64,000 nt of DNA, taken from positions 25,718,001 through 25,782,000 of the forward strand of contig NC_092674.1 in the NCBI RefSeq assembly GCF_964355755.1, given 5' to 3'. Position numbers and translations under genes: made by a program. This document shows positions 35,401 through 60,699 of the stretch, one piece after another (position 1 is the first letter of the stretch; each line of letters opens with the position of its first letter). The notes under the pieces were generated by a model that ran no database searches, had not been told where the DNA came from, and saw nothing but the letters and a program-made list of their open reading frames with translations. The stretch is from Antedon mediterranea. Taxonomy: Eukaryota; Echinodermata; Crinoidea; Comatulida; Antedonidae.

Positions 35401-38400
35401 AATGACAATACATAAATAAAGTCGATGATTCCGAACCAAATGCCCAAATAATTCTACAGTGAATATAAAACATAAGTTTAGAAAATAAATAACATCCTTA
35501 CCATGCCATTCCATCAAAAGGCTAGTTTTGACGATTGCTTTTTAAGATGATCATCTTTCAGTTCTCCCATGCTTTAACATACCTCTCGCTGTGTTTGTTT
35601 ACCATTGTATACCCACTAAAAGGTCAAACTGACGGTAACCTCGCGAGCGCGAAACGTGTCTATTCATTTTGTTTTTCATTTATTCACACAGGAGTAATTA
35701 AAACTTTGAATTCAATTAGTTTTCTGTGTCCTACTTACCACATCATCTAATAACATGTTGACAGCCTTGTGCAGAAAATGTCTCAAACTTGCAACATCAA
35801 CCACCGCTGCTAATTCCAACAGTGCCTCCTGAAACCAAAGCAATACTAAATGAGAATGTAAATATAATAAAGTAGGACATTTTAAAAGTAATTTTAATTT
35901 TTGTTGAATGAATTTACCTGAAGATTAAACCTTATAAATAACACCACATACATATGGGTAGTGGTTTGTTCATTTGTGTATTATGTAACAACTGGTTCTA
36001 TACTGTAGGGCTTTCCCAATATTAGAGGATCTTTTTATAATAGGGGGCTCCCCAGATATCAGGGGGCTCTCCCTATATTAGAGGGATCTTCCCATATTAG
36101 GGGGCTCTCCCCATATTAGGAGGCTTTTCTCATATTAGGGGCTCTTCTCATATTAGGGGCTCTCCCTACTGTATATTAGGGGCTCTCCCCATATTAGGGG
36201 GGGCTCTCCCTATATTAGGGGCTCTCCCCATATTAGGGGGCTCTTCCCATATTAGGGGATCTCCCCATATTAGAAGGATCTCACAATATTAAGGGGCTCT
36301 CACCATTAGTGGCTCTCCCAGTATAAGGGGCACTCCCCATATTAGGGGCTCTCTCCATATTATTAGGGAGCTCTCCTTATATAAGGGGGCTCTCCACATA
36401 TAAGGGGGTTCTCCACATATAAGGGAGCTAGCACAGTTTGGTGGTTTCTAGGTTCAAGCAATGAAAGATGACGCAGCAAGACCGATGAGAACAGGAACAG
36501 TGGACAATGGTCAGGGTGCTTTGCACTTGAGACATACCAACCATCCCATACTCAATTTTTCTTTGCTACTACTAGTAATTTTGTTCTTACTACTACAGTA
36601 TAGGTCATACAGTTAGACAAAAATAAACATATCAAAAAGATATACTGTGCCCTGTTGTAGTTAGTAATATTATCTAATTCAACAAATAACATGGAAACAA
36701 ATTTTGGAGAGAAAACTTAAGGAAAATACATTGCTGTATGTAACTCTGAGCCAGAGCTACCTCTTTAAATTGAAAAAAAAAATGGCATTAAACTGAAATT
36801 GTTTCATTAACAATCATAAAATGTTAAAAACAAAAGGCCGGTTATCCAGGTATACTTTAGATAGCTAAAAAGACAATTACACCATAAATATTAGTACAGA
36901 GAACATTTTCGCCAAGGTGTAGCATAGCAAAAATCTATACAAAACAACCTTATTGCTACACATTTCTAAAATTGTGTAGCAAAAAATACAATACAAAACT
37001 ATGTTTCTCGACTTAAAAATCAGTTTGATTAGCAATATTGCTAAACAAAATTTTTAAATGAAATTTTTCCCTGTAGTAACGTACAGTACTGTTTAATTGA
37101 TTATACAAAATACAATACTGTACCTTTTTTCTATAGTGCAAACAGACAGAGGAAACTACTTTTAAATTAAATACTAATATTAATAAAAATTATATATATT
37201 TATATGAAGAATAAAGAATAAAGTACTGTATGAGTTAACTTAATACTGTAGTTTATAGAGTATAGTTACGTGCTTACAAGTTACAATTAATCTTTAATGA
37301 TGTCTTTGAAATTGATTAGAAGTAACCAATTATGAGGTAATTTTGATATTAAAATAACACGTACCTGAAACCGCATTCTCGGTTTTACAAATTTAATGAA
37401 TTCTAAGCTCCAATTCTATAACACTACTTGTCCTTCTAAGTAATTACTTTAAGAACAAGCAAACTAGATGATTTTCAATTTATTTAGCCTCATATAATCA
37501 ATTTTCACTTCATTGAAGGTGATGCTTTTAAATACAGTAAAGACAACACGAGCAGCATCAAACATCACGTTTACAAACTCCAAATACGAACATTAGGCTT
37601 TTACGATGAAATGAAAGAATTAAGAGAATATATCGGTCGGTGTGACAAAAACGGTAAACACAGATGGCAGGAACCAATTAGACTGGTTGTGTTAGATGGC
37701 TAATGTGCATGTGGATGAAAGGTGTATTTGTGAGGATCAGAGAGAGAGATGAATATAAGCGTACTCATGTAAGAATTGTTATGATATTAACCATTGCAAA
37801 CATACTAATGTACGTTAATTATTTAATATTAGAAACTGCCCAGGTGTTATTTAACGAGTTGGCCAACTATAAAAAAAACCTCAAGGTTTTTCTATGATTG
37901 TTGTTGTTGAAGAATATTTATTTTAATAATTTGTAAAATACTAATTATTATAATATAATCATTTTTATTTAAAAATATTGATATATAAATTGCACCTCTA
38001 TGAGCAGATTTGTTATTCTTTCACTCAGATGAGTTTCAACTCTGGTATCTAGCATTTAATTATAGAATTCATTTAAATAAAAATATTAATGGGCACACAA
38101 TACATTAGCCAGTACTGTAGAGTTTATACCCTGCAACAGTATACAAAGAATACAGTGGCATAACAGCTATGAGCGCTCACTCGATATAAACCCAGGGCCC
38201 ACTTGAGTGCAAAAAGACATTAAATTAAAATATATTAAAAAAGGCTAAAAATGCCAGAGGCCTCCAGCGTTGGAGGGCCACCTAACGCATCTCCTTCCTT
38301 GTTTTAGTAGTGTCTTACAGTAAATATATTAACAATTTTTAAATATTTTTATGTAAAATGTACTATGAAATACATTCAAAATATTTTCCTATTGAGAACG

Positions 38401-39528: not shown

Positions 39529-40669
39529 CTTTAGCTAAAACTGGCAATACTTCACTTTACAGATTTAACTTTTCTTCATTATACTTAAGGAACTGTAAGT
39601 ACAATGAACAAAAATATCAGTTAACCCTGAAAATGCACAACATTTTATTCACATCACAAGTAATTGTATATTCGCGCTGTATGAGGTTGGAATAATTTAT
39701 ATCGTATTATTAATTTCACTTCAAAACGCCCTCTATTACATTGTGGCAAAAAGTGCATCCTAGATTTTTTTTTTCTTTTAGTTCAATAGGCCTATAGATT
39801 AAATAAATGTTTGTTTAAACAATAAAAATGAATGGGTAGCGTGCTCCATTTATTATCTGTGGTTGGTTGTAGTAACTACTAACGCTAAATAAAATTTTGA
39901 ATCGTTAGTGTCACAAAGCATAATATAACACGCGCGTGCGCGTCCAATTATTGATAAAATTTGGACAATATTCTACGCACGCGCTTTCTACTGTGATTGT
40001 CTTGCCGGTATCCTTGACGTACTGTGGATATCTAAAACTTATACGGTGTTATTTTTTAAATAGGACATGCACCTATATTAACACTAAGAACGAATTTCGG
40101 AAGCTCCATTTATTATCTGTGGTTGGTTGTAGTAACCCTTGTACTACTAACGCTAAAGTTTGATTAAATTATCAGATGTATTTTGATAAATAGATATAAG
40201 TTAGACATTAAATTTATAAATAACTTCGCAAGTCACAGTGAAAATAACTGAACATGTAAATATAGTACTCAGGCCCGTTTATACAACGCACGCGGGGTTG
40301 GGACGCGTTCGGGATCTAACACAATGTGTGTCCTTCCCCCCACCAAAAAAAAAGGACTCTTGTATGCAATTGTCTAGTTTGTAAACCAATTTTCTGTTCG
40401 TTTATTTCTAAAACAAATCAATCCCCTAATGCCTTGCATTTATTCTGGCGCAAGAGTGAAGGTAAAAGCATGTCTCAAGTTTCAAAGTAAGCCTAAGTTG
40501 AAAGTGACTATTTATATTATTTCATGTTTCGAATGTAAATGCATACAACGCCACCCAACTGGCAGAAAACGTTTGTTTACATACAAAAAATATAATAATA
40601 CAAAAATAAAAAATAAATTACACATCGATTAAAACACATGGAGAAAAACAAGGCCATATACATGGCTGT

Positions 40670-40751
40670 AGTCGCGTGCTCAAGTTAGTATTTACCGACC
40701 GACCAACCGACCGACCGACATACTGTAGAGTCGATCGCGCTGCACGCGACT
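40670..40751. mobile_element. 82-bp mini-element with AGTCGCGTGC ends
   Basis: AGTCGCGTGC (40670-40679) and GCACGCGACT (40742-40751) are exact inverted ends around a CCGACCGACC run. The same ends bound the larger element in intron 3 of MFSD8 copy A. Unit B lacks this segment. Confidence 0.75.
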
Positions 40752-41394
40752 AAAAATGTTGAAAATCAGTAGATGAAGGTTGATTCAAATTTAATAATGT
40801 GTGTAATCAACAGTACATCATGTTTGATAGTAAAAAAACATACCAGCCTCAATCATGGTATGTACTAATATGGCAATATGATTGTGTATATATATAATAT
40901 ATATTATTCGTGAAACTTCCTCACATAGTGCACTAGGGCACAATGCCACAACTATCGAGATAACGGCTATTCAAACTTAATTCACTGCACATTGGACTCG
41001 AGATTGGGCGTTTTGAGGTTAGTTATGACTGGTTGGAAATAATGAAACATCAAACCAACTCGATCAAACATTATTATACATTCGTTGTTCTTGTAGGCCT
41101 AGATAACATCTTATCGCACGACGTTTTTTAAATAAGTTCATTTTTCTCATTTAATAACATTTATTTACAAACTTCTCTTTTTTAATCCTTTCATCGAGAT
41201 TTGATTCGGTGTCCAGCATCCAGTAAACCACGAAGTAATATTATTCAATGACTATACAAATCACAGTAATCATAATCGTGCGATACTTCCATAAGTAGAA
41301 TCGGTCCGATTTTTTGTCAATTTCAGATAATAAACATCGTTATCATGGCTTTATTTGAAGTTCTTTCAAACTTGATTTTAATATAAACTTAGCG

Positions 41395-41483
41395 TGATTG
41401 CATTGCACCAGTTATACTTTGTGAAGACTTGAGTACCAACACATATCAAGTGATTTATGGTGGCTGTGACATAAAACTAAAAG
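41395..41483 (+). other. MFSD8 copy A, 5' UTR exon 1
   Basis: GAGTACCAACACATATCAAG and TGATTTATGGTGG are conserved in unit B, and both copies end with AAAAG before a GTAAGG donor. There is no ATG in frame with exon 2. The upstream limit is approximate because no transcription start is visible. Confidence 0.6.
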
Positions 41484-42244
41484 GTAAGGTCATACAGTTT
41501 ATGTTATTATACTTAATTATCTTTTCATAAAATTAATTAATTAAATATGTGAGTTTATTTAGTTATCCTCTGATCACCACTATGATATTTATTATATCAT
41601 TATCATACAACGAAACAGATTTATGTCTGATGTTTAACCAAAGTTATTCATATTTTAAAAAAAATTAAATGTGTAATTCGTTAAGATCGAAACTCGCTAT
41701 GGTAAGGAGGATCAAACAAAAACGTATTTTCTTTAACAAGTTTAAACTGCTTTAAATTCATTGAATCAAGACTTAATTTAAAGACTTCACCAAGTTAAAG
41801 GGAGTTATTAGTGTCTCTTTCCACAATTGAGTGAAAGAAAAAGAAATATGTGATATAAAGTGGTCCACCGCGTGTATGTTCTGAAATAGTTTCTCGACGT
41901 TGCAACCATCAATATACTTCTATCTTCCTCAGGGTGAGAATGTGGGAAAATGCTTCGTAATAAAATAAATGTCTAGAACACAAAAGCCCGAGTTTAAATT
42001 CCTAGATTTTATTTCCTCCATTCTCATGTCATTCAACAAAATTGGGCGAGTTTTGTCACATAAAGCTGAACAAAATTTAGAGATATTGTTGTAGCAACTT
42101 TAATTACCATAATGTCTCTCAAACTTACACGCGAAAATCCAAATGTATTATTAGGAGTGCGTGCCTCATTGATGATCCTACTGGTTCCATATAACTATTA
42201 TCAATTAACAAAGGTGAATTTCGTTCTTTTTTTGTATAGAAAAA

Positions 42245-45200
42245 ATGGCACATCCACGAACAGTGAGTGAATCTCGCTCTAGATCTGCTAGTAAACTGGA
42301 ACAGAACTTGGATAATATAGGAGCTCCGTTAACCTACGGCACTGAACTGTATAATCCAAGAACAACCCATGGAGCTGTATTGCATGAACATGAAGATTTC
42401 GGTGAACTTTCAAGAAGGTAAAAGTACAATATCAAAAAATGTGCATGTAACCAACAGCAGAAAAGAGTGTTAAATTAACAAAGAATGTTTAGTAATTAGT
42501 AGCATCTTCTAAAAAATTATAACTTAAATTAGAACAATCAATGACAACATACATTGAAGCTAATGCTTAATAATGATAGCCAACAAAGAACAAATAAAAA
42601 GAAACAAAGATAATAAATTGAACCGGACATAAATCAAGAACACCTGAATATTCCTCCTCCAAAGTTCTCCATTTACTTCTCTCTAATTTCTCAGTTTGCA
42701 ATTCTCCACCAGTTGTTTTTATATTTCCTCATGTCATCTCTCTATCCCCTCATTCTAGGCTTGCCTATTTTCGTTTTCCATATTCTTGGTTGCCAAACCA
42801 TAGTCCTGCTTATCCTGGAGTCTTCCAACGTAGCCTGCTCATCTCCACTTATTTTGAGCAATTATTGCTGGAAGCAGATCTCTGGTTCTTGATCATTTCC
42901 TCATTAATTTGCATGGAATCTTTTCCATTATTATTTTGATCCATAATAAGTGTATCCATTTGTATTTGTTTATCTTTTCTGAATCATAAGTTTCACCAAA
43001 GTTATTCACCTAAACATTCACGTACATAGCACAAAGTTCACTGGGTGAGGGCAATTCATCCCTGCTATCGCTATCCAAAGATAAGAAGAACTTGGTCATT
43101 CCGAACTTTGTAACATCCTGGAAATACCTACAATTCAATTTTTTTTCAAAAAGAGAAACTAAATCTATATGCCTAAACTTATTTCATACATCAAGTAACA
43201 CATCAGCTTCGGCTGGATGGACCACCCTTTTTAAATATTGTTAAAATTATAATAAAATAAAATGCTATATAAATATAGTGTTAAAGTAGGCCTATATTAA
43301 TAATGATTAATATTTTATTTTATTTGTATGATCTTTGAACTTTGACCCTGTCTACGATAATATCAGTGAATTGAACAAGAAAAAGAAGTAAGTATACTGC
43401 ATTATTTATTTATATTTTATAGTTTCATTCTTGGTTTAATTTTATCTAAAAATGGTTAATCTCGAAAGATAATAATGCGCATGCGCAGTTTATTGAAATC
43501 TGAATCGATTAAAAAAAAGCAAGAATACTATTAGAGATAACTTATCTTAAAGATAAACAACATTTGGATAACATAGAACCATAGCATTGTCTATAATAGT
43601 AATGAAACGCGCTTACTGGAACTTAAGAAAAGTTTTGATTTGCTATTATGTAGAGGGCGCTATTGAATACTTAAGCAAGAACTACATAGTTTTTAGTCGC
43701 GTGGAAGCGACTCTATAGTTCACTAAGTCGGTCGGTCGTTCTGTCTGTCTGTCTGTCTGTCGGTCTGTCTGTCTGTCGGTCTGTCTGTCTGTCGGTCCGG
43801 TATCACTATGCGTTTTGTCGCTTTATGACCTTATCTTGATATCAGTTTAATCTAGCTAAGTCAATTTTTCACAGAATATTCCTTATGGCCAGGAATCGAT
43901 GTGGTTATGTTTTCACGGTGCGCAATAAAAAATTACGCGGTCTACGCACGATTTAACGAAATCACGTTTGTAATCATATCTTAACAACCATGAATCACCA
44001 TTAAATAAAATTTGGTACTCATAAATTTCAGGGCGTAAATCATCATATGGCAATACAATTACGTGCGTAGCGCATGTAACGCATGCGTACGCGCGCTTAA
44101 AATTTTCAAAATTTATTTTCGATGAAATAAGAGTACGTTTCAGGCAATTTTAAGCGTTTACAAAATTGCCATGAGTGCGCAGATTTTTGCGCGCGCACTG
44201 CGCGTTAAATGTTATTGCGCACACTTTTTGCCCGATTTCTGTTTTCTTGACTTACTTTTCAACTCAAAATTACGTTATACGAGCACGTCAAATGTGACAG
44301 GCTACGCACGTGTAAATTAAAAAAATATAAATGTTTTTAAACATTTCAACATTTTTAAACATGTTCAGTAATTTCGGTCAGTATAGTTCACTATGTCGGT
44401 CGGTCCGTCTGTCTGTCGGTCTGTCTGTCTGTCAGTCTGTTTGTCTGTCGGTCCGGTATCACTATGCATTGTAGCACGCGACTTAATGGCTGTTGGCCTT
44501 GTTATTACTGTGTGTACAAATAAATAATTATTGTAAATAAAAAATACTGCAATGTACATAACTTGTATGTATATTAATACATATTTTTTGTTTCAAAAGG
44601 GAAATGGCGATGGCCGAGACTGGAGAGACCTCTGAAGAGTATGATGTCCGATGGCGTTCAATCTACATTACTTATCTCACTGTGTTTTTATCAAGTACTG
44701 GTACGATAACGATTGTGATTGGCCATTTGCTTGTGTCGCGCTTGGTTGTTCAAGCGGCGACACTGTCTTACTATAGTGTTTTATACAAAGCAAGAGAAAT
44801 GAACAGATCCGTAACCGAGAAATCTAATGAAACACTTTTTAAAATGACAAACTTCTTTGCACAAAATAAGTGACTATTAGAAATTAATCTTATTAAAGAA
44901 ATTGTTTCTTTAACCAACTGTATGCCGAATCCATACTTCGCTAACCACTACGTATTTTTGTTTTATTCATTTAGTAACAAATAGTATTGTATTTTTCAGG
45001 TTTTTCATTAGTCTTACCGTCTATATGGCCGTATATACAAAGTGTAAGTCCTACAACTTTATCAGCTACTAGAAATCCATCAACTTTTTTAGGAGATTTT
45101 CAGTAAAACGAATGATTTTAAGAACAGGATTGTAGAGAGACGTTGGGTTTAGACATAATTAATTTCAGGTTAAGTTCCACTAGAAGTATTAGATCTACTA

Positions 45201-48200
45201 TTATATTCTACTGTTATAATTATTTTATACAGGTTAATAGTGACGCTGGACCCGAGATACTTGGTTGGACAATCGCTACATTCGGCTTAGCTCAGTGCAT
45301 AGGTGCACTGTTCTTCGGTTGGTGGGCAGATCGTTTCAAAGTAATCAAGATAGCAATGATAGTCTCTGTTCTACTGACTATCATTGGAAACGTAATATAT
45401 GCCTATGCAGCAGTTCCGAGTAACGTAACCGCCGGAATAGTGATGATAATCATCGGTAGATTTTCTGTTGGTCTTGGTGCAGGTACGTTTGTCAACAGTT
45501 TTGATTAAAGAACTTGATTCTACAGCTGTCGTTAGATAGATCCTAACTGACCATCGCAATTCATTTAGATACAACTAGACTAGTATCTAGACTTGCGATG
45601 GTCAGTTAAGATCTGTCTAATGACAGGAGATTTCCAAAGCTCTTGAAATTTGAAAGATTCGTCCGAACTTTTCCACCACTAAAGTTCATTAATACCTTCT
45701 TATAACATAATGCTTAGTTTTCCAAAACACTTTCTCCTCTTTAGTTTCTTTGCTTCTTCTCCTCTTCATATATTTTCCATAACTGCCTCAATCCATGCAT
45801 ACGTCTCCTCCAATCAGCAATTTCCACACTCTTCTAATTTTTACACTTCTCCACCAATCAGAAACCTACACAATATCTTTCTTTCACCATTCTTTGGAAT
45901 CCTGCCTCATTGACTTCACAAGTATTAAAAAAAAAGGAAAACCAATTGGACAACTTGTGACAAATGCTGTATTTCGTTTTTATTTCTATAGGTGACGTCG
46001 CTTTAGGTAGAACTTATGTATCAGCAGCAACAACAATGACAGAACGAACTAAAGCTGTAGCAACCCTAAGCGCCGCCATTGCTGTCGGCTACATCGCAGG
46101 ACCACGTAAGTTTAAGTTTATTTACTGTGATCTTGTGATTGGTCAAATCACTGCGTTGCGCGTACGTCCTGCTTTGTTTAGTCAATTAGATAAAAAACAA
46201 GGATGATCTTTTAAATTATACGATTGATCTTAGTTTTGCAGACGGTATTTACTAAGATTGGCGAGGAAGGAGTGACATGGGAAGCAATTCAATTTACATT
46301 AAATATGTACACAACACCAGTTTACACTAGCGCCTTTCTTGGTATACTCAACATCATCTTGCTGGCTCTTAGATTTAAGGACTGTCCTCTATCTATTATT
46401 AACGAAAGTGACGACGCAGAAACCGGAGAAAACAAAGAAGGAAACCGTAAGTCTTGATTGGGGCTATGTCGCCTAATTCTATTTATGAGCAATTGTTGTT
46501 GAATTTGTTTACACATTTGGCAGAGCTTGTCCACCGATATCCCATGTTTCTTTGTATTGTGACTTTCTCGGACGGCTACGAAAGAGGATTGATCATAGGT
46601 AGATGACCAGGATACTTTAAGGTTTATAAGGTTCCAGATCATATATATTGTTATTGATAATCGCTGAACACAAACTATTTATTTTCTTAAAGAAACTGTT
46701 GTGGAAGAGGAGAATTTGTTAGATTGGGTAGCAGTGGGGACGACTTGTTTCCTGTTCTGTGTGACAACATTTGTATTCGCTGCCTACGACACGTAAGTAT
46801 ATTGTGACAACATTATGTGTACGGTACTGTACTTCAACTTCAAAATCAGTTTCCATTAGATAAAAGTGACTATTTTGACCCAATATTGAAAAGATAAAAG
46901 TGACTATTTTAACCCAATATTGAAAAGATAAAAGTGAATAACATGACGCAATGTTGACAAGTTAAAATTACGACGTTACGAAATGTCCTCAATTAATTAT
47001 TTCTGTTAATATACAAAAAATAACCCTTTTTCTAAACTTTTAAACCACTTTTGTAATTTTAATAATATTAAGTCAAAACTTCCATATGGGAAATGAAATT
47101 TGATGTTGTTTGTGATATTTATGTAGGATTGGCACAACATTTATAATGGATATGTATGGTTATGAACCGGACACGGCTGTATTTTATCAAGGTCTTCTAC
47201 TTTCGGCTGTTGCCGGTGTGTTTGTAGTTGTTGTCTTCTGCCTGAAGCTTCTGAAAAGGTACGTAGGCCGACATAAGTTTGGCATTACAACTTTATCTTA
47301 CAGATGAAATGGCTATAGCGCACGAAACTGCATACAAATCTAATTGTGTTGTGTACAGCCATTCGACTAGACTTTTTATGTTAGTCGACGTTTCGAGTTT
47401 TGTCTGAAATCACAAGCTCAAGCAAGTAGTATAAGTATGAAACGCCATATGTGCCAAACTATTTATCAAAACTGGAAACAGACTACCATTCGACGTGTAA
47501 TTGCGGAATGCGGGTCAGTATTACCGTACCTTGGCGATTAACGTCCATTTTAGGTGACTCTTAACTGTTTTCTGACGATGACGAAATAAAATTGGTTTAT
47601 AAATCGATGTGATTATTATTCACTATTAAATATAAGGAGGAATCGAATTATATTTCTTTGTTTTAATGATTTTGCTAGGATATTAAGTGAACGTGCTTTA
47701 TTTTTGGCTGGTTTTGTTATTACTCTTGCTGGTGTGTTTATTATGATGCCATGGGGAACTAATACAATGCTGGACGAACAAGGTAAGAAAGAACGCTAAA
47801 GCATGTTCAAACACTCTTTTCTCTTTCGGAGTTATAGTGTTTCAAACGGTTTAACTTTTCGCGTTCGAATAATGCGTGGTAACATCGGATAGGCTCTGAA
47901 CAGTTCATCGATGTTTATATCGGAGGTACATCGCATTGCTTGTATCCTTAGACAAGACACGTTACTTATGTTTGCTTTTTCAACCAAGGTGTACAAATGG
48001 GTACATGGTAAGATCAAAACAAAACATGCGCTGATTACTAGCTGCATTATGGGGCGGTATGTCTCCACGTTTTTGATTTAAAAAAATTCCATGGGGGAAT
48101 TACATTTATAAAAGATTTGTGAATTTAAGAAAACATTATCCTGACTGCGACTCGCGCCCCGGCTGACCTGGACCCTAGAGTTAATTCCTATTCTGAATTA

Positions 48201-49178
48201 TTTTTTCTACAGCAAAGAGAGCAGCAGAAGAGGAAGTTTCTCTTTTCAACACTGTTATCGATACCGGTGGCAATATAACATACAAGATTTGCTATCAGGA
48301 ATACGTTTGGTGCGAAACCACGGCGTTCATTACCTTGCCCCAATACCTGATCGGCTTTATTTTAAACATGGGCATAGGATATGGATTTGCTTTTATCATG
48401 GCGTCGACAATTTACTCAAAAGTTCTTGGCAATTTGAATCAGGTAAGATCATTGCGTTGATGGCTATGGTCACGGTGACCGTCTTTTTAGAGACAGTGAT
48501 AATGAATTTGAAGATCACTGTTTCGATGGCAGTAATGTCCTAAACCAGGAGCCAATTCTTCTGTCATGTCTGTAAGCGTTTATTATTGTTATTATCATCA
48601 TGCCTTTTGTTGTCCATCGAATGCTATTATTGTAGGCAGTCCTTATTCTTATATGAAAAGCCTCCAAAATGGACAACAACAGTTCCCTCAGCTCCTATGA
48701 TGAACAGAATAACCTTATCATGAACAAATAAAGCCCCTATTATCAAAGATGGTATATACGATCTTCGCTATTATACGACAGATTTTACCAACACGGCTCT
48801 GATACCACGCAGGCCTAACGGAGTTACTGTGCACTACAAACAGCTGCGACAATGTTAACAATTGTTCTTTTTACAATTTAGGGTAAAATGATGGGGTGGC
48901 TGACTGCAGCTGCCAGTGTTGCTCGTATCATAGGCCCAATATTCATCTCTCAAGTGTACGAATCTCAAGGCCCTCGTATGGCATTCGGCATCATGTGTCT
49001 TATTGTTATTGTATCTATATTCATGATCGCCATTTTGTACGAGAGGTTTGTACCGTACGGAATGCGAGAAATCTATAAAATACATTTTGAAGATTTGAAC
49101 TCGGAAAGTGACTACGGTGACAAAAGTAAGGACAATGCAGGATTTATCGCAGACGATGAATTAGGAACAAAGTTCTGA
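42245..49178 (+). CDS. MFSD8: MFSD8/CLN7-type lysosomal MFS transporter, copy A
   Basis: Coding exons: 42245-42417, 43367-43387, 44600-44700, 45000-45043, 45233-45482, 45992-46105, 46234-46446, 46693-46792, 47127-47258, 47679-47782, 48213-48442, 48882-49178. All borders are GT/AG and the phases close to 592 codons; human MFSD8 has about 520. The family reads [18 protein letters not shown] (residue 82 on), SIWPY, the MFS loop GWWADR (142-147), [19 protein letters not shown] (about 194), [27 protein letters not shown], TMERxx-like MDMYGY, and [21 protein letters not shown] near the end. The protein is predicted to have 12 membrane segments. The loop before TM7 has EEENLL (310-315), a possible acidic dileucine lysosomal sorting signal. 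The luminal loop before TM10 has an NIT sequon (438) and a CxxxxxxC pair (444, 451) as in MFSD8. The N-terminal 66 residues are a Ser/Arg-rich extension ending in a Lys run. CLN7 is a lysosomal membrane protein linked to chloride conductance and to Batten disease. Exon 8 uses the acceptor at 46233, since the nearer CAG would give a stop. Confidence 0.93.
42655..42900 (-). mobile_element. LINE C-terminal coding relic in intron 2 of copy A
   Basis: On the minus strand the sequence gives [20 protein letters not shown] and then ENENRQA with stops. This is the KWRWAGHVAR block of LINE reverse transcriptases. Only its low-identity edges align to unit B, so most of it is copy-A specific or lost from B. 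Confidence 0.65.
43476..43487. promoter_or_regulatory. TGCGCATGCGCA, NRF1-type site, copy A
   Basis: A perfect match to the palindromic NRF1 consensus, conserved with flanking AATAA in unit B. It lies in the intron before the exon that carries the internal ATGs (MAMAETGE). Function as an alternative promoter is inferred. Confidence 0.4.
43695..44483. mobile_element. 789-bp element, AGTCGCGTG...CACGCGACT ends, copy-A specific
   Basis: AGTCGCGTG at 43695 and GCACGCGACT at 44474-44483 are inverted. Just inside each end is a TATAGTTCACTA(A/T)GTCGGTC block leading into a (CTGT)n run and GGTCCGGTATCACTATGC, here as direct copies. The interior is rich in CGCGCG words. Unit B has no such sequence at the matching site (near 52953), so the insertion followed the duplication. 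No coding potential. Confidence 0.8.
45521..45625. mobile_element. Hairpin MITE-D in intron 6 of copy A
   Basis: CAGCTGTCGTTAGATAGAT... and AACTGACCATCGCA pair with TGCGATGGTCAGTT and TCTAATGACAG. It is shared with copy B at the same place, and a third copy is at 61597-61752. Confidence 0.8.
46858..46970. repeat. 34-bp repeat, three copies, intron 9 of copy A
   Basis: GATAAAAGTGACTATTTTGA followed by CCCAATATTGAAAA is repeated, the third unit being diverged. The matching part of copy B has a single unit, so it expanded or contracted after duplication. Confidence 0.85.
47925..48085 (+). mobile_element. SINE-1 relic, intron 11 of copy A
   Basis: CATCGCATTGCTTGTATCC, AAGGTGTACAAATGGGTACA and GCGCTGATTACTAGCTGCAT match the 4985 SINE. 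The tRNA head is lost. Confidence 0.75.
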
Positions 49179-50454
49179 TGCTACATACATTCCACTTTTA
49201 TAACAAAAAATACAAGAGAAAATAATCTGAATATTATTATTATAGTCAATGTAAAGATTGCCTTGTAAAAGAAATATGATTCCTTCTGGAAATGGCACAA
49301 TTCATTCAATCGTTCCACGTTTTTCTCATCTTTTAGAGTTTAAACGGGTGTTGCGAAAAGAACTATTTTGTAGCTGGTGGAGTTTATAATATATCTTTTA
49401 AGGCGTTTTAAGTAAACTTACTACAGTACTGTACTTATCTATTAAGTGTTAATTTACTAAATACCTTGTTTCTACTGTGATTGTCTTGTTGATATCCTTG
49501 ACGAAAAGGTAACTGGTTGTACTTATAATATTAAAGTCACTGAACGAATTTCAAAAGCTCTCCCATTTATTATCTGTGGTTGGTTGTAGTAACTCCTGTA
49601 CTACTTGTACCACTAACGATGAATAACTTATCAGATGTATTTTTAATAAATAGACATAAGTTAGACATTAAATTATAAATAACTTCGCAAGTCACAGCGA
49701 AAATAACTGAACATGTACATTTAGTATTAGGACTAAGCACGCGGATAGGGGACACCTTCGGGATCAAACAAATTTTTGTCCAATAATGTTGAATATAGTA
49801 GATGAAAGTTGAATAAAATGTAATAATGTATATAAAAATTATACAGTACATCATCTTACGACTGCAATATTGTAACAATTTAAATTATATTGCTAAATAA
49901 ATGTGAATAACAGCAGATAGTAAACAAACATACCAGACTCAATCATGGTATGTACTAATGTGTCAATTTCCTCACATAGTGCACTAGGGCACAGAGTGTC
50001 ACAACTATCGAGATAACGATTATCCAAACCTAGTACACTGTACATTGGACTGGGCGTTTTTTAGGTTAGGTATGACTGGTTGGAAATGATGGAAAATCAA
50101 ACCAACTCGATCAAACATTATTACATTCATTGTTTCTTGTAGGCCTAGATAACGTCGTGATACGTTTTTTAAATAAGTTAATGTTTTCTCAATTCATAAA
50201 ATGTATTTACATACTTTGTATGATCTGATCCCTTGGTCGAGATTTTATACAGTGTCTGCATTTACTAAACCATTACGTAATATTATTCAATGACTATACT
50301 AATCACAGTAACCATAATCGTGCGATACTACCCTAAGTAGAATCGGTCCGATTTTTTGTCAATCTAATAATAGATAATAATAAACAATCTAAAAATAAAG
50401 ATAATAAACACTGTTATCATTGCTTTATTTGACGTTTTTCCAAAATTTATTTTA

Positions 50455-50555
50455 ATATAAACTTATCGTGATATTGCATCAGATATACTTTGTCAAGGCT
50501 TGAGTACCAACACATATCAAGTGATTTATGGTGGAAGTGTCATCAAGTATAAAAG
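50455..50555 (+). other. MFSD8 copy B, 5' UTR exon 1
   Basis: Matches the copy A exon (GAGTACCAACACATATCAAG) and keeps the AAAAG/GTAAGG donor, so copy B has its own promoter-proximal exon. The upstream limit is approximate. Confidence 0.6.
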
Positions 50556-51329
50556 GTAAGGCCATAAACGTATGTTATTACTTAATTATCATTTCATAAA
50601 GTTCATTTATCATTATTTATCCTCTGATCACCACTATAATATTATCGAAACTGACGGATTTAAGTATGATGTTAAACTAAAGTTATTCATCTATTTAAAA
50701 AAAATTAAATGTGTAATTGTTTGGTAACATTCGTTAAAATCGAAAATCCCTTTGGAAAGATCAAACAAAAGCGTATTTCCTTACCAAGTTTAAACTGCTT
50801 TCAATTTATTTAAATAAGACCAACAATTTAAAAACATCACCTAGTTATTTTATAGGACAGCGGGTATTAGTGTCTCTTTTCATTCGAGTGGAAGAAAAAG
50901 AATAAAACATGATATGAAGTTTGTGGTACACCGCGTGTGTGTTCTTAAAACGTTGAGTTTCACGACGTCATGAATATACTTCGATGTTCGTCAGGGTGAG
51001 AATGTGGGGGTGGGGGAGCAAATGCTTCGTAATAAAATACATGTCTAGAACACACAATCCTGAGCTAAATGCAAAAGTTTGAAGTCTTAAAGTTTCCTTT
51101 TATTATTTTAATTGAGATGAATTCCTAGGTTAATATTTCCTCCATTCATATCAACAAAGCTGAAAAAAATTAAGAGATATTTTAGAGCAACATAATTCGT
51201 ATGTCATGATGTCTGTCAAACTTACACGCAAAAATGCAAGCGTATTTAAAAGTTTCTCTCCTATTGGTTCCATTCTATCATCAATTAACAAAACTGAATT
51301 TCGTTCATTTTGTGTAATTTATAGAAAAA

Positions 51330-54300
51330 ATGGCACATCCACGAACAGTGAGCGAATCACGCTCTAGATCTGCTAGTAAACTGGAACAGAACTTGGATAA
51401 TATAGGAGCTCCGTTAACCTACGGCACTGAACTGTATAATCCAAGAACAACCCATGGAGCCGTGCTGCATGAACATGAAGATTTCGGTGAACTTTCAAGA
51501 AGGTAAAAATACAATTTCTAAAAATACAAAATGGGCATGTAACCAACAGAACAATATTGTGATATGTTGTTATATTTGGTAAATACAGTTAAACTTCCGT
51601 GAGTGGCCACCTCCCGTAAGCGGCCACCTAGCTTAACGACACTTTCAAAAGCCCGTTTGTTCTTCCTATCTATACTAGTTAGTGCATTTGGTACCTCGGC
51701 CGCGGCCACTGTTTTTTACTAACAATTTGGTTGATTGTAAAAAAAAAAAATCGTATTAACCTTTGACAACAAAAATACAATTTTGATCATATTGTACCTT
51801 ATATAGGCCTATTAGCTTAATTTCGAAGCGATTTTAAAAACATTTCTGTGAAGAACATTCCTCCTGTGTTTTGTAGATGATGAGAAAACTACACAGATTT
51901 TTACCGATCATGTAAAAGACCGAGATAAAAGCTTTTAAAATTTGTCTGAAAATCATAAATAATACATGTCTAGGCCAGCTGAAATTATTTTTTAGCAATT
52001 TCTTATCTTGATCTTTTCCTTATTACTTTGGATGGAACCTTTCCATTATTATTTTGATCAATAATAAGTGTATTGTTACGTAATCCATTTGTTGTTTATC
52101 CTTTCTGAATAAGTTTCACCAAAGTTATTCACCTAGCTAAACATTCACGTACATAGCCTAAAGTTTACTGAATGAGGGCAATTCATCCCTGCTATCGCTA
52201 TCCAAAGATAAGAAGAACTTAGTCATTGCCATTCTGAACTTTATAATATCCTGCAAATAGTTTTAATTCAATATTTTTTTTTTCAAAATGAGAAGCTAAA
52301 AATATAGGCCTAAAACAAATTATTTTATACATTAAGTAACATATCAGCTTCGGCTTGGATGGACCACCCTTGTTAAATATTGTTGAAATATAGTAATATA
52401 TAAAATGCTATATAAATATAATATTAAGATATATTTATAATAATAATTAATATTCTAATTCATTTTGTATGATCTTTGAACTTTGACCTGTCTATGATAA
52501 TATCAGTGAATTGAACAAGAAAAAGAAGTAAGTACTGCAGTATTTAGTTATTTATATTATATATTTTTTTTTTATTTTTTTTTTCTTTTCTCTTTCTTTT
52601 TTACTGTTAACAAGTCAGTAGAATTTGTGCTGCTTGATATTATGTAATTGTGAACCATTATTAACTTGTTGTACCTGTGTATATATATATTGTAATAACT
52701 GTATGACTTTATTTTGTAAACATTTTGTATGGGTCGAACCTCTTGTTACGAGAGTGTTCCTCCGTTTTAAAGGAGAGTAACCAATAAATATTATTATTGC
52801 TAGTTAGCTAGTTTGGTTATTCTATCTAAATTGTTTATTTCGACAGAAAATAATGCGCATGCGCACTTCTTTGAAATCTGAATCGATAAACTTTGCTTTG
52901 CTTTGCTATTAATTAGAGGGCGCTATTGGATGCTTCGGCAAGAGCTACAAAGTTGTCTATGTGTACAGCTAAATAATTATTATAAAAAAACCTGAAATGT
53001 ACATAATCCGTATTTAAGTTAATACCTATATTTTTTTTAAAAGGGACATGGCGATGGCCGAGACTGGTGAGACTTCTGAAGAATATGATATCCGATGGCG
53101 TTCAATCTACATTACGTATCTCACTGTGTTTTTATCAAGTACAGGTACGATAACACTTAACCTTGGACGAAACGTAGGCACAACCCATGAAAGTTAATAC
53201 ATCCATAATTATTACTCCATGATAAAGTAGTTCGGATGGTTCAATGCGTTTTGATTGGGCATTTGCTTGCGGCGCGCTTGGTTAAGTTGTTAAAGTGGCA
53301 ACACTGCCTTACTATAGTGGGTACTGGACCAGAGAAGCCCTTGATCAATGTTAGGACCAATCAAGGTACTTTAAACAGTCCTGGCTTTATTTGTGTCAAA
53401 CCTACCTGGCGGTAATTATCGCTGTTGGTTTCGATTGAATAAAAAATAAAATAAAGAGAAATTAAGATCCTTAACCGAAAAATCTAATGAAAAACTTTTT
53501 CAAATGATCTTTGCGCACAATAAGTGACTTTTAGAAATTAAACTAATTAAAGAAATTGTTTCTTTAACCAACTTCAGACTTATGCTAAATTCATATTCTT
53601 ATTTATTCATTTATTAAAAAATAGGATTGTATTGTATTTTCAGGTTTTTCATTGGTCTTGCCGTCTATATGGCCGTATATACAAAGTGTAAGTCATACAA
53701 CTTTATCAGCTACTAGAAATTCACCAACATATTATTTTGAAGATTTTAGTAATTTAACCTAATGATTTTAAAAACGAATCGTAGAGAGATGTTAGACATG
53801 TTTTAATTTAATACTAGAAGTATTAGGTCAACTGTTATGATTATTTTATACAGGTAAATAGTGACGCAGGGCCCGAGATACTTGGTTGGACAATCGCTAC
53901 ATTCGGCTTAGCTCAGTGCATCGGTGCACTGTTCTTCGGTTGGTGGGCAGATCGTTTCAAAGTAATCAAGATAGCAATGATAGTCTCTGTTCTACTGACT
54001 ATCATTGGAAACGTAATATATGCCTATGCAGCAGTTCCGAGTAACGTAACCACCGGAGTAGTGATGATAATTATCGGTAGATTTTCTGTTGGTCTTGGTG
54101 CAGGTACGTTTGTCGAAAACTTTGACTAAGAACTTGATTCTTCAGCTGTCGTTAGATAGATGCTAACTGACCATCGCAAGTCATTTAGATACAACTAGAC
54201 TTGTATCTAAATGACTTGCGATGGTCAGTTAAAACCTTTCTAATGACGGGAGATTTCCAATGCTCTTAAAAGTTAAGATTCGTCCACTTTTCCACCACTA

Positions 54301-57300
54301 AAGTTCATTAATACATTCGTATAACATAAACTTTTCCATAGCATTTTCTACTCTTTAGTTTCTTTGCTTCCTTCTATTTCGAATACCTTTTCTATAACCT
54401 CCCCTCCATTCAACATTCATTCAACAATCTCATTTCCCATGCATACGTCTCCTCCAATCAGCAACCTCCACACTCTTTTTTTAACTTTTACATTTCTCCA
54501 CCAATCAGAAACCTACACATCATCTTTCTTTCACTTTTCTATGCAATTCTGCCTCATTACATTACATTGACTTGACAAATCGCTTTAAAACAAAAGAAAA
54601 GTAATATAAATACAAATAAAACCAATCGAAAAAAAATAGAAAAGTACATCAAGTACAATTTATACATTTTATGTAACTTGTCACAAATTCACTGTTTCGT
54701 TTATTTATAGGTGACGTCGCTTTAGGTAGAACTTATGTATCAGCAGCAACAACAATGACAGAACGAACTAAAGCTGTAGCGACACTAAGCGCCGCCATTG
54801 CTGTCGGCTACATTGCGGGACCACGTAAGTTTAAGTTTATCTACTGTGAACTTGTGATTGGTCAAATCACTGCGTTGCGCGTACGTCATGCATTGTTTAG
54901 TGAATAAGTTATATTAGATAGAAAAGAAGAGGTGATATTTTAAAAAATAAGATTTATTTTAGTTTTGCAGACGGTATTTACTAAGATTGGCGAGGAAGGA
55001 GTGACATGGGAAGCAATTCAATTCACATTAAATATGTACACAACACCAGTTTACACTAGCGCCTTTCTTGGTATACTCAACATCATCTTGCTGGCTCTCA
55101 GATTTAAGGACTGTCCTCTATCTTTTAACGAAAGTGACGACGCAGAACCCGGAGAAAACAAAGAAGCAAACGGTAAGTGTTGCTTGGAGCTATGTCGCCT
55201 AATTCTTTTTATGAGCAATTGTTGTTGAATTTGCTTACACAGTGAGCAGAGCTCTTCCACCGATGTTTACGCGCTTGAGTGAAAACTCCCTATACTAAAA
55301 ATATCTCTTTGTATTGTGACTTTGTCCTACTGCTACACGAAAGAGGATTGTTTAAAGGTAGACATAGATATAGCTAGGGAACTTTAAGGTCTATAAAGTT
55401 CAGATCGTAGATATGGTTAGTGATAGTTGATGAACAAAAGCTACTTATTTTCTTGTAAAGAAACTGTTGTGGAGGAGGAGAATTTGTTAGATTGGGTAGC
55501 AGTAGGGGCAACGTGTTTCCAGTTCTGTGTGACAACTTTAATATTCGCTGCCTACGACACGTAAGTATAATGTGACAACATTATGTACGGTACTGTACTT
55601 AAAACATCAGTCTCCATTAGATAAAGGTGATTAATATGACGCACAGTTGAAAAGTTAAAACTTACGACGTTACGAATTGTCTTCAATTAATTATTTTGTT
55701 AATATACATAAAGTAACTATTTTTCTAAACTTTTAAACCACTTTTTTTATAGTTGTGGTTGATTACTGAAGTTAATTAAGGACCATGTGATATTTAGTAT
55801 AGAATTAATTAACGTATATACAAAGCTTTTTTCCATTTGATACTCCTTTAAGATTGTTACCCCTCGCTCATGAGAATTCAACACAGGTAAGATAAAACAA
55901 AGCAAACACAGAGGTTGGAAATGAAATTTTGTTTTTTTTTTATATTGTGTAGGATTGGCACGACATTTATAATGGATATGTATGGTTATGAACCGGACAC
56001 TGCTGTACTTTATCAAGGTCTTCTACTTTCGGCTGTTGCCGCCGTATTTGTAGTTGTCGTCTTCTGCCTGAAGTTTCTGAAAAGGTACGTACACAAGTTT
56101 GGCATTATAAATTACAGATGGAATGGTTGTAGCGCACGAAACTGCGCACACATCTAATTGTGTTGTGTACAGCCATTCGACTAGACTTGCCCAAGTCTGT
56201 ATTTATTGTCTTTTTTTATGTTAGTCGACGTTTCGAGTTTTGTCTGAAAATACAAGCTCAAGTAGTATATGTGAAACGCCATATGTGCTGTTTTTCTGAC
56301 GATGACGAAATAAAATTGGTTATATAAATCGATACGATTATTATTCACTATACAATATAAGGAGGAATCGAATTATCTTTCTTATTTTTCTTTTCGGTTT
56401 TTTTTGCTAGGATATTAAGTGAACGTGCTTTATTTTTGGCTGGTTTTGTAATTACTCTTGCTGGTGTGTTTATTATGATGCCATGGGGAACTAATACAAT
56501 GCTGGACGAACAAGGTAAGAAAGAACACTAAAGCATGTTTCTGCTTTCAAATAACATTACAGGCATTGGAGTTATATCAGAGGTACATCGCATTGGTTCT
56601 ATCTTAGTGTACAATGGATACAAAATTGCGCTGATCATTATATAATACAGCTATAGCTGCAATGTGAGAGTATGTTTCCAGTTGTTTTAAAACAAATGAC
56701 TTGGGTAATATTTTGAAGCGGTTATAGATGCTACACGACAAAATTATCCTGGTTGCGACGCCACATCGGCTGATCTGGATTTTCTTATTCTGAATTATCT
56801 TTTCTACAGCAAAGAGAGCAGCAGAAGAGGAAGTTTCTCTTTTCAACGCTCCTATCGATTCCGGTGGAAATATAACATACAAGATTTGCTATCAGGATTA
56901 CGGTTGGTGCGAAACCACGGCGTTCATTAGCTTTCCCCAATACCTGATCGGGTTTATTTTAAACATGGGCATAGGATATGGAATTTCTGTCATCATGGCG
57001 TCGACAATTTACTCAAAAGTTCTTGGAAATTTGAATCAGGTAAGATCATTGCGTTGATGGCTGTTGATGGCTATAGTTACGGTTACCGTCTTTTTAGAGA
57101 GAGAGTGATAATGACAAAGGTCTTGTGAATTTGAATTAGGTAAGAAGATTGCGTCGATGGCTGTGGTCACGGTGACTGTCTCTTTACGATGTACTGTTAA
57201 GAGACAGTCATGTCCGAAACCACGGTGCCGATTCTTTTATGGTATTATGTCTGCTAGCTGAGTGCCACTAGACCTCCTTATGTGGAAAGCCCACAGAATG

Positions 57301-57827
57301 GACCCAACAACAGCGCCCTCAACCACTATGATGGACAGAAAACCCCATAATGAAAATAGTTTTTATTTAATATAACCAAAGATCGTATATACGATCTTTG
57401 CTATACGACAGATTTTACCAACACGGCTCTGATACCGCACGTATAGGCCTAAAAGAGTTGTTGTGTAGTATTAAACACAGTTGTGACAATGTTTACAATT
57501 TTATTTTATCAATCTTTTTTTACAATTTAGGGTAAAATGATGGGGTGGCTGACTGCAGCTGCCAGTGTTGCTCGTATCATAGGCCCAATATTCATCTCTC
57601 AAGTGTATGAATCTCAAGGCCCTCGTATGGCATTCGGCATCATGTGTCTTATTGTTATTGTATCTATATTCATGATCGCCATTTTGTACGAGAGGTTTGT
57701 ACCGTACGGAATGCGAGAAATCTATAAAATACATTTTGAAGATTTGAACTCGGAAAGTGACTTCGGTGACAAAAGTAAAGAGAATGCAGGATTTGTCGCT
57801 GACGATGAATTAGGAACGAAGTTCTGA
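51330..57827 (+). CDS. MFSD8: MFSD8/CLN7-type lysosomal MFS transporter, copy B
   Basis: Coding exons: 51330-51502, 52507-52527, 53044-53144, 53644-53687, 53854-54103, 54711-54824, 54963-55172, 55461-55560, 55953-56084, 56411-56514, 56810-57039, 57531-57827. All have GT/AG borders and exon sizes identical to copy A, except the seventh coding exon, which is 3 nt shorter (LSF for LSII), giving 591 codons. No disabling change is seen. The GWWADR loop, EEENLL, the NIT sequon and the luminal Cys pair are all kept. About 25 residues differ from copy A. Ten lie in the 76-codon exon 56810-57039, for example NTVIDT to NAPIDS and YVWC to YGWC in the luminal loop, and GFAFIM to GISVIM in TM10. One change puts Gln for Leu in TM7 (CFLFC to CFQFC). 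Likely role: the same transporter function, possibly specialised. Confidence 0.93.
51590..51720. repeat. Dispersed repeat with GTGGCCACC / GCGGCCACC units
   Basis: TAAACTTCCGTGAGTGGCCA followed by CCTCCCGTAAGCGGCCACC looks like the start of a short-period repeat of the same style as the CTCTATTAAGGGGACA family. It is not present in intron 2 of copy A. Confidence 0.5.
52560..52800 (+). mobile_element. LINE 3' tail in intron 3 of copy B
   Basis: A 3' UTR-like segment with CGAGAGTGTTCCTCCGTTTT and AGAGTAACCAATAAATATTA ends in ATT repeats. Copy A has no such sequence between the microexon and the NRF1-type site, so it is a post-duplication insertion. Confidence 0.65.
52854..52865. promoter_or_regulatory. 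TGCGCATGCGCA, NRF1-type site, copy B
   Basis: Identical to the site in copy A, although surrounding intron sequence has diverged. Confidence 0.4.
54144..54250. mobile_element. Hairpin MITE-D in intron 6 of copy B
   Basis: TAACTGACCATCGCAAGTCA followed by TTTAGATACAA pairs almost perfectly with the second arm ending ATGGTCAGTTA. It is better preserved than in copy A. Confidence 0.85.
56578..56725 (+). mobile_element. SINE-1 relic, intron 11 of copy B
   Basis: AGGTACATCGCATTG, GCGCTGATCATTA and TGACTTGGGTAATATT are remnants of the SINE seen at the same intron position in copy A, with internal deletions. Confidence 0.6.
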
Positions 57828-58675
57828 GGCTACATACATTCCACTTTTATAACCAACAATACAAGAGAAAATCTGAATATTACTATATAGTCAAGGTAGA
57901 GATTGATTTGCGAACGACTTGTAAAATAGAAATATGATTCCTTCTGGAAATGGGAAAATCATTAAATCGTTCATATTTATTTCATCTTTGAGAGTTTAAA
58001 CGGGTGTTGCGAAAAGAAATATTACTTAAAGTGTTTTAAGTAAGCTTACTACAGTACTGTACTTATCTATTAATTGTTAATTTACTAAATACATTGGTTT
58101 TCCTTAGAATTGTTTCAGGCGCACCAATAGTAAGAATAATTATTGTCTTGCCTTAATAAAACAGCAGCTGGAAATCAAACCTTTAGGTGACGGCGCCCTC
58201 CTAGCTATATAGGATATATACATACATTAATGATAAAAAAGAAACGATCACGTAATATATATATATATAATCATATAGGCCTAATTCTTGTATATATTGC
58301 TATACATATATTTGCAAACATAAACCGTGGCCTACAGATGATTGAACCTATTGTGCTATTTGAAAATTTCTCTGAACGATTTCAAAATAAATATTAGTAA
58401 TAACATTTTTTCTCTGTTTCTTTCCAAAAGTAGTCTAACGCCATCACATCAATATAACGCGTTTCAAATGTGTTTCAAAGTAACGAATTTAATGCACACA
58501 CACAAAAAAAAATTGAAAAGTTTTCATGTAAGTCATCACATCTCTTAAACTGTAACAATTTGCATGAATCTCTGAAAGTATTCAATCGCCACATACGATA
58601 AATGTGAATTGTCCCCAATGTTATTGTCTTTTTAGTCAGTATTGTCCACCCATGGAGTTATATTATATCTCCATG

Positions 58676-58995: not shown

Positions 58996-59734
58996 CTATA
59001 AAATTTATTTTGCAGATAACTGAAATAAAATACCCAAACACCAATCGATCAATACATAATAATTGTAAGAATCATTTTCATAAAATTATTGTTCCTTGGT
59101 CGTTTTACAAAGGAGTGGTTTTCTATCTTACGGAAAATGTATAGCTTGACGTTTCGTTAAACGTTAAACAGATTTTTCTACCCAATCACACAAAGCCTTT
59201 CTAATAATATCTCAACCGCGAGACGGCCAGATTAGAAGTGTATTTTTCTATGCATGGCAATTACTTGAAACAAATGCGGTATAATTAAAGTCTCGGTGAA
59301 ATTAATGAATTTGAAATTAGTCATTTGCAGAATTGCAATTAGCATTATTTCATCAAGATTGTGTCTCTCTCAGTTTGACGCAATGAAATTGCATCGATAA
59401 GACTTATAGACAATACTAAATATTGTTTTGTATATTATTATCATTATTTACAACGGTTGGATTGTTCATACGGATGAACGACGGGTCAAGAGAGAGGGAT
59501 TTATGAGTGAAGATCTATTTTAAAACCCAATGTGTGAACCGGGGACAACTTCGTCACTCAAAGGGGTGTATTTTACAATACTTAGGAATATTACATATAA
59601 AGATTATATTAATATTGTCTTGTTAATAATACAAATGTATACATTTTTATGATATTATCATTTACGGATGCTTGAATGTATATTTATGACTTAGTTAATA
59701 AGGCCCGTATTCATGAAAGGGGACTAACTTACTT

Positions 59735-59992
59735 TTTTTGTTTTTTGTTTTTTTTGTACCATATTTAATGAGGGTGATCCATCCAGCAATTGCTGATCAT
59801 TAGGGACCCTCAGAAGTTCACAACACAAACATTATACACAAGATGCTCTATATAAACAAAGTCTTATTACAAGTCTTTGGGAGTGGAGTTGTAATTATGT
59901 CCTTAGAAAAAATCCTGACATGTGACGGGACTTGAACCCAGGACCCTTGGAGTGGTAGCCAAGCATCATAACCACCAAGCCACTCCACTCCG
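59735..59992 (-). mobile_element. SINE-2, full length
   Basis: On the minus strand it begins GGAGTGGAGTGGCTTGGTGG (A-box-like) and has CCTGGGTTCAAGTCCCGTC (good B box). The unique body follows, and it ends with GGTACAAAAAAAACAAAAAA. The arrangement is a tRNA-derived head plus A-rich tail. Similar ACTAACT words at both borders may be a decayed target duplication. Confidence 0.75.
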
Positions 59993-60699
59993 AAACTAAC
60001 TAACTAAAGAGGGATTTTTTAGTGAAGATCTATTGTATATACTAAAACCCAGTGTGTGAACAAGGGGACACCCTCGACACCCAACAAAGTGTTTATAATG
60101 GGTTTTTTCTGAATGTGGGTTGAATTTTGTAATAATTAGGAATATTATTTAAAGATATTGTCTACAAATGTGGAATACATAAATGTTTATGATTAAAAAA
60201 GAAATTAAATAGGTGCAAACTTGCAGACAGTACTGTATTGAATTAATACAATATAACAGGCAAATACCAAGATACAGGATCAAATATGAAACACATAGCT
60301 TAGGAAAATCAAAATGTGCACCATCATAAACGACGTGACTTTCGGTTATAAGGTTTTTGGAGTAGATATTTTCAAAGGTTGGTGAATATTAGAGGAATGC
60401 AGGGGCGCACTGGAATCCGGTTTAATCAATATCCATATAAAAATAACGTTAATTTTGCATTAACATTAATATTCATTGAGTGTGCAGTATACAACCAGTA
60501 TTATTTTACTCTTTTCTATGAATATTCATGTCAATTATACCCTCTTTCATTGATCAAGCATCCTTGAATTTATATTGATATACCGACTAAACAGAATATT
60601 CATTCACTCGCGCACGCTTAGACACGGGGGATTCAATCCATGAGTTTTTTCAAAAACATTTTATTAAGCACCGGTGGTAAATAAAAATAATAATACAGT

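Follow-up and report, generated by a model that had tools for sequence, protein, structure and literature searches.

The window analysed here is a stretch of 64,000 nucleotides from the crinoid Antedon mediterranea (contig NC_092674.1, positions 25,718,001 to 25,782,000 of the forward strand), and a pair of neighbouring MFSD8-like genes within it raises the question of whether one complete gene was doubled in place and, if so, whether this is unusual. The original prediction was a head-to-tail duplication of a complete MFSD8 gene with both copies intact, considered notable given that MFSD8 is a single gene in mammals. In this study, the edges of the repeat, the gene models, the divergence of the copies and their place in the gene family were investigated; positions are those of the window unless a contig is named. 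A local duplication of a whole MFSD8-like gene, with both copies retained as genes for MFS membrane proteins, is very probable. The pair is an ordinary expansion of a multigene family, probably real and not unusual.

Extent and edges of the direct repeat

A self dot-plot of 39-59 kb had been proposed as a check, and self-comparison of the window gave a long, co-linear direct repeat in this interval. The length and order of the matches between the two units rule out chance as their source. The units were delimited by the self-comparison blocks and the printed edges, and a search with a 157-base query from near the 5′ edge added a third, shorter stretch:

39985..49468, + strand, unit A of the direct repeat
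49469..58096, + strand, unit B of the direct repeat, adjoining unit A
39843..39889, + strand, partial third copy of this stretch near the 5′ edge, about 95 bases left of unit A

Units A and B lie head to tail with no spacer at 49468/49469, and their edges agree with the predicted outer coordinates (39984-58097) to one base or less. In the printed sequence, no shared bases at the junction or at the edges of the units were obvious by eye. The 157-base query (threshold E ≤ 0.001) had three matches in the genome, all at this locus and one of them the partial third copy; the stretch is not a dispersed repeat. Intron 5 of both copies contains an imperfect inverted repeat (45528-45626 and 54146-54247), seen as an inverted match between A and B. 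It could represent the insertion of a small element that predates the duplication.

Gene models of the two copies

Each unit carries a gene model with 12 coding exons, and intron phases are identical between A and B:

42245..49178, + strand, coding span of gene A, 592 aa (open frame; GT/AG at 11/11 introns; spliced alignment for part of the exons; Pfam MFS_1, 135 bits)
42245-42417, 43367-43387, 44600-44700, 45000-45043, 45233-45482, 45992-46105, + strand, gene A exons 1-6
46234-46446, 46693-46792, 47127-47258, 47679-47782, 48213-48442, 48882-49178, + strand, gene A exons 7-12
51330..57827, + strand, coding span of gene B, 591 aa (open frame; GT/AG at 11/11 introns; phases as in A)
51330-51502, 52507-52527, 53044-53144, 53644-53687, 53854-54103, 54711-54824, + strand, gene B exons 1-6
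54963-55172, 55461-55560, 55953-56084, 56411-56514, 56810-57039, 57531-57827, + strand, gene B exons 7-12
43367..43387 (A), identical at 52507-52527 (B), + strand, predicted 21-nt microexon, coding exon 2 (gene models from sequence only)
41483..41484, + strand, likely end of the 5′ UTR exon and donor GT of gene A, read from the sequence
50555, + strand, likely end of the counterpart 5′ UTR exon of gene B, read from the sequence

Eleven of the 12 coding exons are equal in size, the exception being exon 7 (213 nt in A, 210 nt in B, one codon fewer in B), and 563 of 591 aligned residues of the two proteins are identical. In both copies, every one of the 11 introns that separate coding exons has GT/AG borders, and internal stops are absent; the predicted preservation of every splice site and of an open frame was thereby confirmed. 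The frame is also open without the predicted microexon. The donor of the likely 5′ UTR exon is conserved between the copies, with the acceptors placed just before 42240 (A) and 51325 (B). Adding this putative exon to the 12 coding exons gives the 13 exons of identical phase and near-equal size that had been predicted. Coding introns measure 128-1212 bp, and their length can differ considerably between the copies (for example, 1212 vs 516 bp).

As a control, a provisional human MFSD8 sequence was aligned, with splicing, to unit A. The alignment agreed with the model at both ends of exons 4 to 11, at the exon 3 donor and at the exon 12 acceptor, and added one spurious 27-nt exon. The product of A matched Pfam MFS_1 at 135.4 bits against a cut-off of 33.4 (A was scanned; B is 95% identical to it).

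Divergence of the copies and probable true duplication

Between A and B, dS was 0.112 and dN 0.0215 (591 codons compared; 42 silent changes, 29 replacements). Their ratio, w, was 0.19 and below 1 (p 1.6e-11); it is a value for the pair, and by itself does not prove constraint on each copy. The pair is subject to purifying selection. Gap-free noncoding sequence differed at 575 of 4702 positions (JC 0.133), with a further 574 gap columns; one query stretch lies in two overlapping blocks (48443-48489 and 48443-48505), and both were kept in this count. The description of the pair as apparently functional is supported by a whole gene in direct orientation, two open frames and w below 1, and the term recent must be qualified, silent and noncoding divergence being 0.11-0.13.

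Exon-biased gene conversion was considered and rejected: silent sites (42/403.5) did not differ significantly from gap-free noncoding sites (575/4702; p 0.30), and the contrast between exons and introns mostly disappeared, global intron alignments having exaggerated intron divergence. Noncoding blocks differ mildly in their divergence (p 0.014 over 25 blocks), so gene conversion in small tracts may have occurred.

An assembly artefact, in which diverged haplotypes of a single gene were placed end to end, would account for the exact abutment of the units, as a false duplication could produce it. Elsewhere in the genome, on C1, a second pair of family members in tandem gave a comparable dS of 0.105 (rough models); values so similar may be coincidental, or may stem from a burst of duplication or from a single class of artefact. 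Divergence of the size found between A and B, in silent and noncoding sites alike, is in our judgement far beyond that usual between alleles, by a general yardstick. The introns differ by large insertions or deletions, and the window is free of N. Among the candidates scored (40 of 409 for the left flank of 2441 bases, 40 of 3907 for the right flank of 2506 bases), each flank was fully matched solely at its own place. The remaining matches, 43 of 44 on the left and 41 of 42 on the right, covered short stretches, and neither flank had a second copy among these candidates. Given the silent and noncoding divergence, the intron indels, and the lack of any gap and, among the scored candidates, of a second flank copy, two haplotypes are a far less likely source of the pair than a genuine duplication in tandem, and the artefact is highly improbable. 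It is also very unlikely that one copy is silent or decaying and intact in appearance only. The frames are open and the splice sites present in both, and the 28 replacement differences polarise evenly against other family members: A matched them at 10, B at 9, and neither matched more at 9, so neither looks like a decaying copy.

A true duplication leaves the question of whether A and B are starting to specialise through the second helix bundle and its lumenal loop. Helices 1-6 had 2 replacements at 444 sites and helices 7-12 had 18 at 530 (p 0.001), silent change being equal between the two (p 0.85), and the differences cluster in windows of 50 codons (p 0.0028). However, the helix split was chosen post hoc, with the data already seen, and the clustering lost strength when windows of 20 (p 0.17), 30 (p 0.020), 60 (p 0.012) or 80 codons (p 0.077) were used. 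The C1 pair leans the same way, with w 0.17 over the first 200 codons and 0.54 after (rough models). Among the differences in shared columns, 7 of 23 fall where human MFSD8 and the family gene at C5:29.10 Mb (hereafter C5:29.10) are identical, compared with 233 of 471 columns overall (p 0.086). We read the bias towards helices 7-12 as probable looser constraint there and not as proof of specialisation, which is an unlikely account of the pair. Dosage gain and specialisation had been named as possible outcomes, and both are possible.

The MFSD8-like family and orthology

Protein searches and gene models in the 354-Mb genome put the number of MFSD8-like genes at no fewer than seven: besides A and B, there are C5:29.10, one at C5:26.49 Mb and a group of three on C1 (17.26-17.27 Mb). 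C5:29.10 lies 3.3 Mb from the pair. Two of the C1 genes form the second tandem pair, and the third lies beside them in opposite orientation:

C1:17258727-17268866 (L009, L010), further MFSD8-like pair in head-to-tail order, 84-99% identity in the best blocks

The C1 pair resembles A/B in its head-to-tail arrangement, its family and its rough dS; it differs in belonging to a separate branch of the family (100/100) and in its higher w, 0.47 (rough models). The 11 introns of A were compared with those of four other genes, an intron being counted as shared when it had the same phase and lay within one alignment column; 5 were common to all four genes, 1 to three, 2 to one and 3 to none. On the - strand of C9:21543481-21552904, three MFS_1 matches in open frames of 348-365 codons follow one another at intervals of about 4 kb and hint at a further local cluster of transporters.

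The reasons given for the pair's interest fared less well than its structure. In a 354-Mb genome with coding introns of this size (128-1212 bp), mammals are the wrong yardstick. Nor was the doubling of a single MFSD8 gene established: the family numbers at least seven MFSD8-like members, C5:29.10 is nearer to the provisional human sequence than A and B are, and two of the C1 genes also stand in tandem.

Identity to the provisional human MFSD8 sequence was 48.8% for C5:29.10, 40.2% for A and 39.7% for B; for A, the estimates ranged from about 39% (over 526 columns) to 40.2%. In an unrooted tree of eight rows, the provisional human MFSD8 sequence, C5:29.10, A and B were separated from the other four at 100/100. 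Within this group, the best tree joined the pair to human MFSD8, weakly (67/70), and the union of the pair with C5:29.10 was nearly rejected (p 0.052); in exons 7, 8 and 12, A is at least as near to human as C5:29.10 is. These results favour the pair as the true orthologue of vertebrate MFSD8, C5:29.10 then being a paralogue. Against this are the higher identity of C5:29.10 to the human protein and the sites where two of these three sequences share a residue (105 for human and C5:29.10, 61 for human and A, 31 for A and C5:29.10). The topology uniting human with C5:29.10 was not rejected (p 0.40), and the stem of the pair is long (1.31). We regard orthology of the pair as possible but doubtful. 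Among 82 columns constant in human MFSD8 and three paralogues, 14 differ in both A and B.

Among the open frames inspected by eye, none of the usual neighbours of human MFSD8 was recognised beside C5:29.10 or right of the window. A pirin domain (67 bits; L013:1661-2050) lies to the right of C5:29.10.

Protein features compared with human CLN7

PMC8673761 describes human CLN7 as an endolysosomal chloride channel whose R153, E287, Y438 and R465 mutants carried less current, and whose lysosomal targeting requires an N-terminal dileucine. The pair resembles human MFSD8/CLN7 (518 aa, lysosomal) in the MFS fold indicated by Pfam and in the conservation of R153 and R465. At the four pore positions, A and B both have R, D, S and R, so that two residues are kept, one is replaced conservatively (E287D) and one is changed (Y438S); C5:29.10 has R, E, F and R.

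Unlike the human protein, the pair has a longer N-tail that lacks the dileucine motif [DE]xxxL[LI]. In either copy this motif is matched once, by an EEENLL that lies between helices 6 and 7 (residue 310 in A, 309 in B). The missing N-terminal signal leaves the location of A and B uncertain and a lysosomal role not secured. The positions aligned with human N371 and N376 lack N in the pair, and NIT is present at residue 438 of A. By a simple hydropathy count, A and B each have 12 helices; human MFSD8, for which 12 are described, scored 10, so the count is a rough guide.

A single-sequence search of solved structures with A gave no matches at 1e-5 and two weak ones at 10; a four-protein profile retrieved 19 sequences at 1e-3, chiefly NorA, MFSD10 and VMAT2. 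Judged by the four pore positions, the products of the pair would most naturally be anion-conducting membrane proteins.

Other elements in the window

A fragment of a DDE transposase (PF13843, 36.4 bits, 150 residues searched), of the type named piggyBac-like, lies at 16166-16750 on the - strand. Minisatellite arrays occur at 25515-27106 (19-base units), 20318-20762 (15-base units) and 36037-36429 (19-base units); the first two contain long open frames that are apparently translations of the repeat only. An interspersed repeat of about 250 bases (59723-60008) is 90-98% identical at no fewer than 39 further places (40 of 3907 candidates scored).

Origin and significance of the pair

A local duplication at the DNA level, of about 9 kb, would have copied an entire MFSD8-like gene together with its 5′ flank and 3′ end. 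The joining may have followed a non-homologous or replication-based route, as suggested by the lack of a shared repeat seen at the unit edges, an argument weakened by 12% later change. Both copies would then have been retained as genes that encode an MFS membrane protein of 12 helices, would both be transcribed, and may serve CLN7-like anion conduction in an internal membrane. Their retention may reflect dosage, or the second helix bundle may have diverged mildly.

It is improbable that the pair is an ancient MFSD8 side lineage, lost in mammals, which kept the pore arginines, changed the pore tyrosine, lost the N-terminal sorting signal and was then duplicated. If that were true, one genome would hold a natural series of CLN7-like channels differing in location and gating.

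A published survey reports 11 MFSD8-related proteins, none within the human cluster, named MFSD8L1-L11 (PMC5627054). They resemble the present family in that several MFSD8 relatives stand beside or outside the human cluster; the passage that names them gives neither species nor gene arrangement. A literature search on MFSD8 with tandem duplication or family expansion gave no account of such a pair among the matches listed. That relatives of MFSD8 exist outside the human cluster has been published before.

As an ordinary family expansion, the pair adds one more genome with a multigene family of CLN7, a human neurodegeneration gene, and cautions against assuming one-to-one MFSD8 orthology with invertebrate models. 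Otherwise a routine tandem duplication, it supplies naturally occurring variants of pore residues that have been probed by mutation in human CLN7.
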